Shown piece by piece: positions 2,948 to 32,092 of a DNA stretch of 64,000 nucleotides. The position numbers were made by a program, and so were the translations under genes. A model generated the notes under the pieces. The model saw nothing but the letters and a program-made list of their open reading frames with translations, did no database searches and was not told where the DNA came from. How positions within the stretch are numbered: position 1 is the first letter of the stretch; the number at the start of each line of letters is the position of its first letter. Source of the stretch: Rhizobium lusitanum (GTDB lineage Bacteria > Pseudomonadota > Alphaproteobacteria > Rhizobiales > Rhizobiaceae); NCBI RefSeq assembly GCF_014189535.1, contig NZ_CP050304.1, forward strand, positions 268,029-332,028, in the 5' to 3' direction.

Positions 2948-3961
2948 TTATTTGGCGGCCTTGACGAACTCCGTCGTGTAGGTCTTCGACAGGTCGATCG
3001 ACTTACCCTGAACGTTCTTCGAAAACGCTGAAAGAACGGCAAGAACGGTCTTCGGACCATCTTCAGGCATGACGCCATCGGGCGTGAACATCGCCTTGCC
3101 GTTTTCAAGCGCTTTCACATAGCCTTCCTTGTCGCCGATGTAGAAATCCTTTGGCATCTTGTCGGCGATTTCGGCGGCGGAATGGGTGTTGATGAAATGC
3201 AGCGTCTTGACGAAGGCGTTGGCGAGCTTCTGGGTCTCCGCCTTGTGATCATTGATCCACGACGTCTGCATATAGAGAGAGGCTGCCGGATAGGTGCCGC
3301 CGAGCACTGCCTTGGTGCCGGCCATCGTACGCATATCGATCAGGACCTTGGCTTCGCCGGTCTTCAGCAGATGCGAGATCGTCGGCTCAGTGGTCATCCC
3401 AGCCTGAATGGCATCCTGCTGCAAGGCGGCTATGAAAGTCTGGCCGGCGCCGACCGGAACCGAGGTGAAATCGCTTAGCTTCAGGCCGTTTTTGACCGCC
3501 AGATACTGCGTCAGGAAATTGGTCGACGAGCCGAGACCCGTGACGCCAAGGCTCTTACCCTTGAAATCAGCCGGCGACTTGATCTCGGGATGTTTGCTGG
3601 ACACCAGCTCCACTTCGCCGGGCGCCTGGCTGAATTGCACGACGGACTCTACAAACTTACCCTTGCCTTGAAGATCGATGCAGTGATCATAGAAACCGAC
3701 GACACCCTGGACCGCGCCGGCAAGCATTTCGTTTTCCGCGTCCACGCCGGCGGGCTCATTGAGAAGCTCGACCGTGAGACCCTCGTCCTTGAAGTAACCC
3801 AGCGATTCAGCAAGCTTGGCCGGCAGATAGATCTGCTTTTCATAGCCGCCGACCATGATGGAGATCTTGTCGGCTGCCTGTGCCGCCGTCGCCCCGAGCG
3901 AGACCGCCGCCATCGCAAGGGAAAGGGCCGCGGAATAAAAGAGAATGCCTGTCGAACGCAT
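2948..3961 (-). CDS. ABC transporter substrate-binding protein, NMT1/TauA-like
   Basis: The 337-residue protein begins with a Sec signal peptide ending around 'GATAAQAADK', followed by the 'ISIMVGGYEKQIYLPAKLAESLGYFKDEGLTVEL' opening of periplasmic binding proteins for nitrate, sulfonate, taurine or thiamine precursors. The later 'SPADFKGKSLGVTGLGSST' motif fits this fold. A strong ribosome binding site (GGGAGGAG) precedes the ATG. No permease or ATPase gene lies beside it, so it is an orphan binding protein, either serving a transporter elsewhere or left after deletion. The ligand cannot be assigned. Confidence 0.85.
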   Translation of the reverse strand: MRSTGILFYSAALSLAMAAVSLGATAAQAADKISIMVGGYEKQIYLPAKLAESLGYFKDEGLTVELLNEPAGVDAENEMLAGAVQGVVGFYDHCIDLQGKGKFVESVVQFSQAPGEVELVSSKHPEIKSPADFKGKSLGVTGLGSSTNFLTQYLAVKNGLKLSDFTSVPVGAGQTFIAALQQDAIQAGMTTEPTISHLLKTGEAKVLIDMRTMAGTKAVLGGTYPAASLYMQTSWINDHKAETQKLANAFVKTLHFINTHSAAEIADKMPKDFYIGDKEGYVKALENGKAMFTPDGVMPEDGPKTVLAVLSAFSKNVQGKSIDLSKTYTTEFVKAAK

Positions 3962-4340
3962 TGATGTCTCCTCCCGTTAACTGCCGGCGGCACTTGAACA
4001 CCACAAGGCAGACGCTTCCTCCTGAAGCGAGAAAGACTTGCACCAGCAACCTTTCAGTGAGCTGAAGGGATGCCGACAGCTCTTCATTCGCATGACACGA
4101 TTTTACTTTCAGGAGATATCGATGATGTCCGAAGACGTCGATTGCGGTCGGGATTGATGCCATTGCAGTCCTGCGGATCGCTTCATGCACAGACGAAGCG
4201 ATCTGCATTAATTGAATGCCCCGAGGCCATGAAGGGTCGCCGATGCATCACACTTTTCACCGGCAGATTTCGCCAACGACGTCATCGCTATTCCCGTATT
4301 AAGCCTGCACGACATCGCCGATCATGAAGTGCGCAGCGCC
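3962..4340. other. intergenic region, no gene seen
   Basis: This is the upstream region of the binding-protein gene and the downstream region of the MipA/OmpV gene. It is presumably a promoter region, but I could not identify a convincing -35/-10 pair or a riboswitch. Open frames here lack family motifs. Confidence 0.4.
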
Positions 4341-22757: not shown

Positions 22758-23082
22758 GATTCTCGGTCCACAGAATCTCAAATAAACTGCCAATTACGAA
22801 AAATATGGCCGCATTCTCACGGTTAAGTGCCAAACGACACGGGTTTTCGGGAGTTCTCGACGCACACGGAGCGGAACAAGGGCAGCCGCAGGAGCTTCAA
22901 CATGGTGGCCCCCAAGGGGAAGCGGGACTGACTGCCCCCGCACCTTGCGTTCCGCTTTTCATGGGCGAGTGGGGAGTTCCGAGGGAGGAGGGCCATAAGC
23001 CCCTTGTTCCAGCCAGCACACCGCTCGATGCGGTCAAAGGCTGGAGGCGGCATACCGCCACCTCAGATGCGCGGGCATCGCT
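22758..23082. other. unassigned region between transposon remnant and toxin-antitoxin pair
   Basis: Open frames cross this stretch on both strands, but none has family features. The minus-strand sequence around 22830-23050 is GC-rich and conserved-looking, though I cannot name it. Confidence 0.3.
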
Positions 23083-29311: not shown

Positions 29312-30256
29312 ATGCTCGCCGGCGTCAACAAAAATCAGCTACGCTTCCTGATGTTATGCGCAATCTGGGGAAGCACCTGGATCGGAACCAAGGCAGGCAT
29401 CGATGCCGTGCCGCCTCTCCTGTTTGCCGGCACACGATTTACTGCTGCTGGCGTGTTGCTCCTTCTTTACGCCTCGACAAGAGACGAAAGAGCTAAGTTC
29501 AAGATCCAAGACGGCTTTCGTTTCGCCGCCGTCAGCACCCTGATGATCACGCTGTGCTATGGCCCGCTGTTTTGGGGCATGCAATATATCGATTCGGGGA
29601 CTGCTGCCGTTCTGGAAATGTCGCTCACCCCGATCGCGCTCCTCGTTTTCGCGCTCCTTCTCAACGAGGAAAAGTTGGATGTGCGAAGGATTCTTGCGAT
29701 CGCTCTGGGGGTCTCCGGACTGATCGTCCTGTTCTGGCCGACCTCTCCAAATACGAGTTCGCCTACGCCCGAAGCGTTCTCTCGAGCGAGCCTCTGGGGT
29801 GGCCTGGCAGTCGCGTCCGCGGCGTTCACTTATGGCTACGGCTCAGTGCTTGCCCGTCCACTCCTGCGAACCTATCCGGCCTTGTTCGTCGCAGGCGTGA
29901 CGACACTCGTCGGCGGCATTGTGCTCCTGATCGCCGCCATGGCTTTTGAGCCGGGGGCTATTTCCGCTCTCTCCGGCAATTGGGGCACGGTCGCCTGGCT
30001 GGGTTGGTTCTTCCTTGTAATCTTTGGCTCGCTGATCGGCTACACGACCTACATGCGCCTGCTGCGGGACATTGGCGCATCCCGCGCCGGCAGTTATGCT
30101 TTCGTATCGCCCGTGATCGCCGTCGCCCTGGGCGCTGCTTTCTTCGCAGAACAGGTCACCGTGACGGATGTGATTGGCATCATCGTCATGCTGAGTGGCG
30201 CCTATCTTGCCATGTCAGGTGTGCCGACGATCCAACCGGCCACCGTCGAAACCTGA
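29312..30256 (+). CDS. EamA/DMT-family exporter
   Basis: This 314-residue protein has ten helices in two EamA repeats: 'LCAIWGSTWIGTKAGIDAVPPLLFAGTRF' at the N-terminus and 'GYTTYMRLLRDIGASRAGSYAFVSPVIAVALGAAFFAEQVT' near the C-terminus. Proteins of this group (RhaT/YdcZ/RarD relatives) move small metabolites or drugs across the inner membrane. It is divergent from the CGNR regulator. A hairpin at 30310-30336 follows the gene. Confidence 0.88.
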   Translation: MLAGVNKNQLRFLMLCAIWGSTWIGTKAGIDAVPPLLFAGTRFTAAGVLLLLYASTRDERAKFKIQDGFRFAAVSTLMITLCYGPLFWGMQYIDSGTAAVLEMSLTPIALLVFALLLNEEKLDVRRILAIALGVSGLIVLFWPTSPNTSSPTPEAFSRASLWGGLAVASAAFTYGYGSVLARPLLRTYPALFVAGVTTLVGGIVLLIAAMAFEPGAISALSGNWGTVAWLGWFFLVIFGSLIGYTTYMRLLRDIGASRAGSYAFVSPVIAVALGAAFFAEQVTVTDVIGIIVMLSGAYLAMSGVPTIQPATVET

Positions 30257-30309
30257 ACGCGATTCCGAGTCGGAGAGGAGAGTTGTACTATGGAATCCGG
30301 CTGGCGACA

Positions 30310-30336
30310 CCCGATCAGGACGACGTCCTGATCGGG
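30310..30336 (+). terminator. terminator-like perfect hairpin after the EamA gene
   Basis: CCCGATCAGGAC (30310-30321) pairs exactly with GTCCTGATCGGG (30325-30336) around a 3-base loop. There is no T-run on either strand, so it may be a transcript-stabilising hairpin or a protein site rather than a classical terminator. Confidence 0.4.
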
Positions 30337-30451
30337 CACTAACTGGCGATCTGTTTGGCCCCGAAGGCCCCCCTTTCGTCGCTCAACACCGAAGAGAGCG
30401 GGCAAGAGCCGCAGCTCGATCTTGGACTTTGAACCAGCCGGCCCTGAAACG

Positions 30452-30620
30452 AAAAAGCCCGCCGCGGGAGGAGGTGCGGCAGGCTTTCCGAAAAGAACCG
30501 AACAGCAGCTGGGAGGAGGAGTGCTGCCGTTCCCGCAGGCGACCTTGGGAGGAGGATAAGGCGCCTGCATCATCGAAGCTCTGCGGGAGGAGGTGCATCG
30601 CTTCGATGAACACCAAGATA
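30452..30620 (-). ncRNA. four-hairpin anti-Shine-Dalgarno sRNA (CcsR/cuckoo/alpha-r14-like)
   Basis: On the minus strand four consecutive hairpins each display CCTCCTCCC in the loop: arms 30600-30608/30571-30579 (9 bp), 30562-30568/30535-30541 (7 bp, extended by CCTT/AAGG), 30523-30531/30501-30509 (9 bp with one GU), and 30476-30484/30457-30465 (9 bp with one GU). The last is followed by TTTTT (complement of 30452-30456), giving a Rho-independent end. The loops are complementary to ribosome binding sites. Rhodobacter CcsR RNAs and the rhizobial alpha-r14 'cuckoo' family show this motif. The 5' end is approximate. It lies downstream of a DUF1127 gene, as CcsR RNAs do. Confidence 0.85.
30457..30484 (-). 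terminator. Rho-independent terminator of the sRNA
   Basis: A 9-bp GC-rich stem with a 10-base CCTCCTCCC loop is followed on the minus strand by five T residues (30452-30456). The terminator hairpin itself carries the fourth anti-Shine-Dalgarno loop. Confidence 0.8.
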
Positions 30621-30739
30621 CTCGTTCTCGCCGCACATTAAATAGACGTTGCTGCATTGCAGCCATGCCAAAAGCGCATGACCTCAATCTGAGGGCAAAA
30701 ATTTCCAGCACTGCACCTCGCGTCGGCCCAGACACAGAA

Positions 30740-30762
30740 ACGCCCGCAGCATCAGCGGGCGT
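30740..30762 (-). terminator. hairpin between DUF1127 gene and sRNA
   Basis: ACGCCCGC (30740-30747) pairs with GCGGGCGT (30755-30762) around 7 bases. On the minus strand a broken T tract (TTTCTGTGT) follows. It could partly terminate transcription after DUF1127, with read-through or processing feeding the sRNA. Confidence 0.55.
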
Positions 30763-30794
30763 ATTGTCATTCAGGTGGGCTTGGAAGCGGTCGC

Positions 30795-30941
30795 TTAACG
30801 AGCGACCGATGCGCGGGCAACGCTGTGAATGTCGGCGCGATCGATGCCGAGGTCCTGCAGCTCACGCGAGCTCATACGGCCGAGTTCGGTAACGGTCTGA
30901 CGATACTTGCGCCAAGTGTTGAAAGAGCGTGCTACGTTCAT
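30795..30941 (-). CDS. DUF1127 small protein
   Basis: From the ATG at 30941 (AGGGG upstream) the product is 48 residues, 'MNVARSFNTWRKYRQTVTEL' then 'GRMSSRELQDLGIDRADI', the classic DUF1127 form with Arg-rich C-terminal helix. In Rhodobacter a DUF1127 protein encoded just upstream of the CcsR sRNAs (CcaF1) binds RNA and affects sRNA maturation. The same gene order here makes a similar role plausible. A GGAAC box followed by CGTC at 17-base spacing lies upstream on the minus strand (about 30970-30995), close to but not matching the EcfG consensus. Confidence 0.85.
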   Translation of the reverse strand: MNVARSFNTWRKYRQTVTELGRMSSRELQDLGIDRADIHSVARASVAR

Positions 30942-31111
30942 GATGATCCCCTTTCGTGAGGTCTCTTGACGCCAGCAACCGTGCTTTGGTTCCAACGTCG
31001 TTTCGATGATTGGGATATAGGCCCTTGCCTACCCCTCGATAAGGCACAAGGTCTCAGGTCGGCCATGCGCTCAAAGCATGGGTCCAATTAGCAGACGGCC
31101 TGAAGGGGCCA

Positions 31112-32092
31112 TCAGGCCCGGAACCGGTCGAAGGCGGTCAGGCGTTTGATGGGTGGATCGGCGTCTGGGTAGCGATAGATTTCGGCCCTGAGATAGCGAA
31201 GCTCATCATCGAGCGCTTCTTCCCCAACCTCGATCCACCAGGATTTGGGACGGCCGTCGCTTCCGTCGGACCAGCGATAGCCTCGCGCCTTCAGGTGGTC
31301 CTTCATATCGAAGGGACTGTTCTCCGCAAAGATCCGGACACGCGAAGTTTGGCTTGCTTCATAGAGTTCGGCAAAAGCGGTGGAAGCCGATCCTTCCACC
31401 CCGCGAGCCAAGACCTCCAGAAGTGCAAAGCAATCATCGACAGCACGATGACCATCATGGAAGTAGCCCGCCTGCCCGATCAGGTAGCCGAGCTTGGTGC
31501 CTTCATATCCCCGCGACGACCAGTCGATCTCGGAGTTGGAGCAAGCTCAGGCCTTGCCGGAAAACAGGTGAGAAAATGCCTCGCAGAATGGCCGATCGAA
31601 ACCGGCATTGTGGGCGATCAGCAGATCAGCCGGTTCAATCAGCGCCCGCAACGCAGCCATATCGATTGACTGTCCGGCGACCATATCGTCGGTAATCCCG
31701 GTGAGCCTGGTGATCTCAGTGGGAATGGAAACGCTTGGCTGTTGAAGCCCACCGTAGATGCCGGTGACGTCACCGATGCTTCCTGTCGCATCGAAGGTGA
31801 AAGCGATCACGCCAATCTCGATGATCTCATCCTTGCGAGCATCGAGGCCCGTGGTCTCGGTGTCGAGAATGATGCCCTTGAGGGGGTATTCCGAGCGTGG
31901 GAATGGTGCGATTGCGCGCGGCGCGAGTTTCTGCAGGATCCGATATCGACCTGTCTGCGACAGATGTCGGACCATGTTCTCTTCACTCATGGGGATGGCA
32001 TGTTTGTAGGGTTTAGCGAATTTGGGGGAGCCGCGCGTGACCGCATGGTCGCGCGGAGCCTGCTCCGAAAACATGTCAAACTGTTCGGCCAT
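31112..32092 (-). pseudogene. DEDDh 3'-5' exonuclease interrupted by one in-frame TGA
   Basis: The N-terminal part (32092 to 31550) has ExoI 'ILDTETTGLDARKDEIIEIG' and ExoII 'AHNAGFDRPF' motifs. At 31547-31549 a TGA stands where Trp is expected, and the same frame continues with '(W)ACSNSEIDWSSRGYEGTKLG', then the ExoIII catalytic 'HRAVDDCFALL' and a C-terminal domain ('KDHLKARGYRWSDG...KSWWIEV'). Restored length is 326 residues. The truncated product lacks the catalytic His/Asp of ExoIII, so it should be inactive unless the stop is read through or is a sequence error. Confidence 0.8.

Follow-up and report, generated by a model that had tools for sequence, protein, structure and literature searches.

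A four-hairpin alpha-r14/cuckoo-type RNA beside a DUF1127 gene in Rhizobium lusitanum

Alpha-r14 RNAs (Rfam RF02344), which include NfeR1 of S. meliloti, are described as carrying three hairpins in one RNA, each with the motif CCUCCUCCC (PMC10746234). By means of these anti-Shine–Dalgarno (aSD) motifs NfeR1 targets ntrB and two ABC-transporter mRNAs, and S. meliloti LsrB binds and activates its promoter (PMC10746234). Cuckoo RNAs are characterised by two to four hairpins with a conserved loop motif and variable helices (PMC4504443), and the short DUF1127 genes associated with CcsR-like sRNAs have been named CIN1 (PMC10253847). In Rhodobacter sphaeroides, the DUF1127 gene ccaF1 and four sRNAs, CcsR1–4 (CcsR1 is RF02791), are co-transcribed behind an RpoHI/RpoHII promoter, and the CcaF1 protein, an RNA binder, contributes to the maturation of the CcsR RNAs (PMC10253847). 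In Agrobacterium, on the other hand, short DUF1127 proteins are reported as PhoR binders (PMC12501420). The sequence GCAT-N3-TG-N3-T is the VtlR box, which its authors treat as confirmed for Brucella abortus and as a hypothesis for Agrobacterium (PMC7486931).

The locus described here lies in a stretch of 64,000 nt (the window; C1:268029-332028) of the Rhizobium lusitanum genome, which comprises 6.94 Mb in five contigs. An earlier note, made from the letters alone, had recognised a 48-residue DUF1127 ORF on the minus strand, followed by hairpins akin to alpha-r14, cuckoo and CcsR RNAs, and our analysis upholds both the ORF and the kinship. Like alpha-r14 RNAs and NfeR1, the window RNA has CCUCCUCCC in every loop, variable stems, its own terminator, several copies per genome and an LsrB-type box whose spacing from the first loop is nearly equal; it differs in having one more hairpin at the 5′ end, again with an aSD loop, and a DUF1127 gene directly upstream. 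With the cuckoo RNA/CIN1 loci (Reinkensmeier and Giegerich 2015), it shares two to four hairpins with this loop and the short DUF1127 gene beside them, a likeness drawn from the descriptions in citing papers and not from the detailed CIN1 architecture. The resemblance to ccaF1–CcsR1–4 consists of the DUF1127 gene followed by CCUCCUCCC hairpins and a sub-threshold CcsR1 match over hairpins 1–2, but in Rhodobacter four sRNAs are co-transcribed with the gene from the RpoHI/RpoHII promoter, whereas here an LsrB-type box stands before the window RNA, and a hairpin separates it from DUF1127. With the VtlR/LsrB regulon of Agrobacterium and Brucella, as described (abcR sRNAs, vrsA, small DUF1127-type genes), the locus shares the box ahead of its sRNA, and 18 of the 21 loci with DUF1127 upstream have this box ahead of the protein gene as well, although regulation is predicted in our case and the DUF1127 box of the window is degraded.

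Since alpha-r14 RNAs, cuckoo RNAs with two to four hairpins and the CIN1 association are already in print, the window RNA is a further member of a described kind, an alpha-r14/cuckoo RNA adjoining a DUF1127 gene (“CIN1”). The four-hairpin array beside DUF1127 is real and well conserved. We consider it quite probable that 30450–30608 of the minus strand specifies a trans-acting sRNA of this family in its four-hairpin form, with its own LsrB/VtlR-activated promoter and its own terminator, which masks GGGAGGA-type sites, and that DUF1127 is a neighbouring unit.

Fold, family and conservation of the RNA

Four exact copies of CCTCCTCCC, with their first bases at 30593, 30555, 30519 and 30474 of the minus strand, occupy the loops listed in Table 1. 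The window contains five copies in all, against 0.58 expected, a count reached in none of 100 shuffles; the fifth is solitary (22983–22991, minus strand). The predicted fold of the minus strand between 30450 and 30615 consists of four hairpins, with an energy of −77.8 kcal/mol (z = −6.0; equalled by none of 200 shuffles), each with an unpaired CCUCCUCCC loop (mean unpaired probability 0.999–1.000 per loop) and the fourth being the terminator, as the earlier note had proposed. Its description of four consecutive perfect or near-perfect hairpins was right in number; hairpin 1, which is interrupted by an internal loop, and hairpin 2, which contains a bulge, are near-perfect rather than perfect.

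The family was assigned with the covariance models of Rfam release 15 and their curated cut-offs, a check that the note had suggested. The RF02344 match, well over its cut-off (Table 1), covers hairpins 2–4, which supply the three hairpins with unpaired CCUCCUCCC of an alpha-r14 RNA, and hairpin 1 is one more. The CcsR1 model (RF02791) reached 34.7 bits on hairpins 1–2 (E = 1.2e-6), under its cut-off of 65.3 bits. As in cuckoo RNAs, the four hairpins combine a conserved loop motif with covarying stems, and as in the CIN1 association, a short DUF1127 gene adjoins them; four hairpins lie inside the published range of two to four. The idea that four loops had here been fused into one RNA is unneeded, and we rejected a fusion of separate sRNAs, because three loops in one RNA are the alpha-r14 norm (PMC10746234) and two to four hairpins have been published (PMC4504443).

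Table 1. Features of the locus and one candidate target site (window coordinates)
Feature	Position	Strand	Basis or remark
Hairpin 1, loop 30585-30593	30571-30608	-	beyond Rfam ar14 model; fold and covariation
Hairpin 2, loop 30547-30555	30535-30568	-	fold, accessibility, covariation
Hairpin 3, loop 30511-30519	30500-30532	-	fold, accessibility, covariation
Hairpin 4, loop 30466-30474, terminator with U run	30452-30489	-	fold, accessibility, covariation
Rfam ar14 (RF02344) match, hairpins 2-4	30450-30574	-	100.9 bits, cut-off 58.8
Predicted -10 element TATCTT	30615-30620	-	TAT position conserved among loci
LsrB/VtlR box GCATGGCTGCAAT, exact GCAT-N3-TG-N3-T	30656-30668	-	75 nt before loop 1
Terminator-like hairpin 3′ of DUF1127, 8 pairs, weak/imperfect T tail	30740-30762	-	terminator scan; position kept in relatives
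DUF1127 small-protein gene, 48 aa	30795-30941	-	PF06568 53.7 bits, cut-off 23.3
Diverged LsrB/VtlR-like site GCATGGCCGACCT	31056-31068	-	127 nt 5′ of DUF1127 start codon; box TG changed to CG
Candidate target site GGGAGGAGACATCAATG before NMT1-like binding-protein gene 2948-3961 (337 aa, L256)	3959-3975	-	predicted pairing

An exact four-motif scan of genome contigs gave at least 120 loci, 80 of them shown with titles, to which nine four-motif loci from further genomes were added. Among the loci listed, 110 were usable after exclusion of repeats and of loci whose title or build pointed to Brucella/Ochrobactrum or Rhodobacteraceae, and removal of near-duplicates reduced these to an alignment of 63 sequences. 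We set aside L091, L118, L122, L172 and L173 by eye on account of 36-nt spacing, low complexity or source organism. Rhizobium and its relatives account for most of the titled hits, both four-hairpin loci and plasmid matches; phage records yielded no match to 30440–30660.

In this alignment, the structure is paired in 93.4% of cells, and 32 of the 46 pairs have changed on both sides. Two-sided changes amount to 237 cells, where shuffles average 66 (all 500 of them lower) and slid structures reach at most 70, a comparison in which the unslid version is favoured by its derivation from the window’s own sequence. Conservation of the hairpin arms by covariation, on which the note had staked its reading, is thereby borne out. 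Ten of the 11 pairs of hairpin 1 show two-sided changes; the outermost two pairs fail to form in 27 and 14 sequences. RNAalifold, run on the alignment alone, likewise predicted four hairpins, the first with eight pairs. The compensatory changes in the 63 relatives thus support hairpin 1 as a real extra hairpin.

Invariance of the loops in this alignment was rejected as proof, since most of its loci had been fetched by the exact four-motif pattern. At 73 loci reached via the covariance model, 209 of 219 loops are exact, with the qualification that the model itself rewards the motif and that at least one place (L014 = L219) was counted twice.

Promoters, linkage and transcription units

As in NfeR1, an exact LsrB-type box precedes the RNA, reading from 30668. 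Among the 106 four-hairpin loci listed with at least 160 nt before the first loop, 96, including the window, have the box 74–78 nt before that loop, where 0.001 would be expected per locus, and in most of the 106 a TAT starts 26–28 nt before it. The box stands 76 nt before the first loop in 22 of the 28 loci of the three-hairpin set. Because this distance is nearly equal in the two forms, gain or loss of a hairpin seems to take place inside the array. The box and the hairpins are seen in the sequence itself; by analogy with NfeR1 of S. meliloti, the LysR-type regulator LsrB/VtlR would activate transcription from this promoter, which would start near 30608 and end at the RNA’s own terminator, yielding a transcript of about 160 nt. 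Evidence against such a promoter is that a sigma70 consensus scan of the region gave no minus-strand site.

We compared DUF1127 and ar14 genes in 17 genomes of the same genus, the R. lusitanum genome included (the genus label being inferred), with 141 DUF1127 and 89 ar14 hits over the cut-offs; one borderline DUF1127 hit, over the cut-off only with its neighbours, was excluded. Within 600 nt upstream and 1000 nt downstream, DUF1127 is found upstream on the same strand of 21 of the 89 ar14 genes, the domain ending 213–273 nt before the Rfam start, only downstream of 15 (one in each of 15 genomes) and on neither side of 53. At least one four-hairpin alpha-r14 RNA behind a DUF1127 gene occurs in 14 of the 17 genomes. 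All 21 upstream-linked loci have four loops with at most one mismatch each: 16 have four exact loops, four have three exact and one with a single mismatch, and one has two of either kind (the last loops of L216 and L217 were read by eye). In the ar14 copy with a downstream DUF1127 gene, present in 15 of the 17 genomes (e.g., L001, L020, L032 and L034), the gap measures 392–479 nt, and several loci have two in a row.

Four-loop forms also occur away from DUF1127. Nine of 20 loci chosen from the 53 with neither neighbour are of this form, seven with four exact loops and two with three exact loops and a near one; L220, one of the seven, sits at a contig end. Among the loci listed, 96 four-loop clusters have at least 700 nt upstream, and DUF1127 was detected there in 52 and not in 44; these clusters take in Brucella-type and Rhodobacteraceae-type loci and one repeat, L173, and the upstream count is a lower bound, since the DUF1127 profile used for it is insensitive and found nine of 13 own genes. 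As no DUF1127 gene was detected beside many four-loop copies, the RNA is, judged by these loci, independent of the presence of that gene.

The DUF1127 ORF exceeds the PF06568 gathering score by a wide margin (Table 1), and copies L005 and L007 of the same genome specify the identical 48-aa protein. In 18 of the 21 upstream-linked loci, GCAT-N3-TG-N3-T lies 124–127 nt 5′ of the DUF1127 start codon; the three promoters that have no exact box are those of the window copy, L005 and L007. The protein gene would form a neighbouring unit with its own closing hairpin, probably once under the same regulator. Our literature search, which took in neither the main cuckoo RNA paper nor the CcaF1 paper in NAR, found no description of paired boxes on DUF1127 and alpha-r14, and we do not claim their absence from print. 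The ribosome site of DUF1127 pairs weakly with the sRNA loop (−6.6 kcal/mol, compared with −16.3 for a GGGAGGAG site), for which reason direct feedback on DUF1127 was set aside. Farther 5′, a 3′–5′ exonuclease frame (31112–32092, minus strand) is interrupted by a stop in the window and uninterrupted at copy L007 and on plasmids.

The hairpin between DUF1127 and the RNA, which the earlier note had thought able to control read-through, is present, and its position is kept in relatives; its T tail is imperfect, and since the terminator scan that listed it gave three terminator-like sites in 2.5 kb, compared with 2.0 in shuffles, it does not by itself go beyond chance. All 21 upstream-linked loci have, between DUF1127 and the promoter, a hairpin of 8–15 pairs with at least four T in the next eight bases (the longest was taken per locus; at most one of 20 shuffles per locus was as good). 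In L006, L206, L211, L212, L213 and L216, the DUF1127 terminator-like hairpin includes CTTCCTCCC, one mismatch from the aSD motif and absent in the window. Read-through past the weak T tail is possible; we infer that the hairpin may control it and that all four aSD contacts may work.

An operon of the Rhodobacter kind, in which DUF1127 and sRNA share one transcript from the DUF1127 promoter, the intervening hairpin is a partial attenuator and RNase E excises the RNA with the help of the DUF1127 protein, seems unlikely to us. Its model is the co-transcription of ccaF1 with CcsR1–4 and their processing with CcaF1 and RNase E (PMC10253847), and the weak T tail, the loops that stay open in the predicted 541-nt read-through RNA, the arrays that begin 21–25 nt after DUF1127 in L111, L126 and L164, and a sigma70 consensus scan of 29500–32000 whose single site is on the plus strand, leaving the minus strand blank, are all in its favour; yet the 201 nt from the DUF1127 stop to loop 1 hold the conserved box and the −10-like TAT, and upstream of many four-hairpin copies no DUF1127 gene was detected. 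Processing from the DUF1127 mRNA, which the note had envisaged, is not favoured because the RNA has its own box and TAT at a fixed distance, because a terminator-like hairpin closes the gene and because of these many copies. On present evidence, co-transcription with DUF1127 is doubtful and co-processing unlikely, and we retain the RNA as a probable separate unit.

Candidate targets

Ribosome sites of the GGGAGGA type are complementary to the loop, and 190 sites of the form GGGAGGA-N3-10-ATG were counted in the genome, compared with 19 for the reversed pattern. The first 30 of the 190 (contigs C1 and C2 and the start of C4) lead to 23 open frames of at least 60 aa, two being the same frame; 20 of these frames were scanned, and they include, as raw counts, six periplasmic binding proteins (two of them, L256 and L258, near-copies), one ABC ATPase, one MFS transporter and one OprB porin. 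By pairing with such ribosome-binding sites, each CCUCCUCCC loop would silence mRNAs, many of them for transport, and the transport-gene candidates agree with the ABC-transporter targets of NfeR1 (PMC10746234).

That the loops chiefly titrate a common factor (ribosomes, RNase E or an RNA-binding protein) as a sponge, rather than single mRNAs, strikes us as very improbable: four identical loops on variable stems and many copies per genome would suit a sponge, which is otherwise speculation, whereas NfeR1 silences named mRNAs via its aSD motifs (PMC10746234).

Copies in the genome and on plasmids

The genome has nine ar14 copies. Hairpin 1 is present in six, L002, L005, L006, L007, L008 and L009 (the window’s own), the first loop of L007 having one mismatch. 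Five of the six stand behind an intact DUF1127 gene, L008 retaining only the DUF1127 end; the other 16 genomes of the genus have zero to two upstream-linked copies each. In L008 and L009, the second and third hairpins agree with those of L006 (92–95% and 100%, respectively), whereas their promoters are closer to those of L005 and L007 (66–76%) than to that of L006 (50–57%), which suggests that hairpin segments have been exchanged between ar14 copies on different contigs.

Plasmid records matching 30300–31700 number 681, of which 97 contain 80% or more of it at a single place. Among the 30 records listed, most are annotated with exonuclease and DUF1127, some also with dinB. Ten plasmid loci were compared loop by loop: four exact loops are present in six of them, a seventh combines two exact loops with two that carry a single mismatch, and the remaining three have three loops when one mismatch is allowed. 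The sRNA box occurs in nine of the ten and the DUF1127 box in three. The window copy, one of the six four-hairpin copies in its genome, sits in what appears to be a cassette of this plasmid type.

The window copy may be silent, because northern blots of S. meliloti reliably show transcripts from just one of six copies (PMC7143759). That it is a redundant or decaying paralogue, hardly expressed beside other copies that are the working alpha-r14 RNAs, has a low probability in our estimation, and as this overlaps with the preferred reading, which is about what the RNA is, the two probabilities do not sum to one. Decay would fit the nine copies in the genome, the single well-detected copy of six in S. 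meliloti (PMC7143759), the stop in the exonuclease frame, the mere DUF1127 end at L008 and the degraded DUF1127 box of the window; the four exact loops, intact hairpins and exact sRNA box of the window copy argue against it. The window holds a second known Rhizobiales sRNA, Atu_At1 (RF02496; 18422–18531, plus strand, 71.6 bits).

In these pairs, DUF1127 and the four-hairpin alpha-r14 appear to be separate units whose LsrB-type boxes match in most cases, and similar pairs occur on many plasmids. They make it testable whether rhizobial DUF1127 proteins act on alpha-r14 RNAs in the manner of Rhodobacter CcaF1 or simply have a regulator in common with them. Tentatively, and with less than even confidence by some distance, we extend the preferred reading to a two-unit module of the LsrB/VtlR regulon, in which the 48-aa DUF1127 protein and the four-headed anti-Shine–Dalgarno RNA, each with its own box and terminator, would travel as a conjugative-plasmid cassette amplified in some genomes; plasmid uptake might then alter how much of a global transport-gene silencer the cell contains, and in the plasmid lineage the protein gene would mostly have lost its box while the RNA kept it.

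Long CCTCCTCCC arrays were also encountered, with more hairpins than the published two to four: L126 has 14 loops, L183 has 10, L111, L158 and L164 have eight each, and L112 has six and four. Those of L111, L126 and L164 are the arrays that start so close behind a DUF1127 gene. The titled long-array loci belong to Pseudoroseicyclus tamaricis (L126), Aliiroseovarius (L111), Cypionkella (L112) and Pseudorhodobacter (L158), hosts which we take to be of Rhodobacteraceae type.
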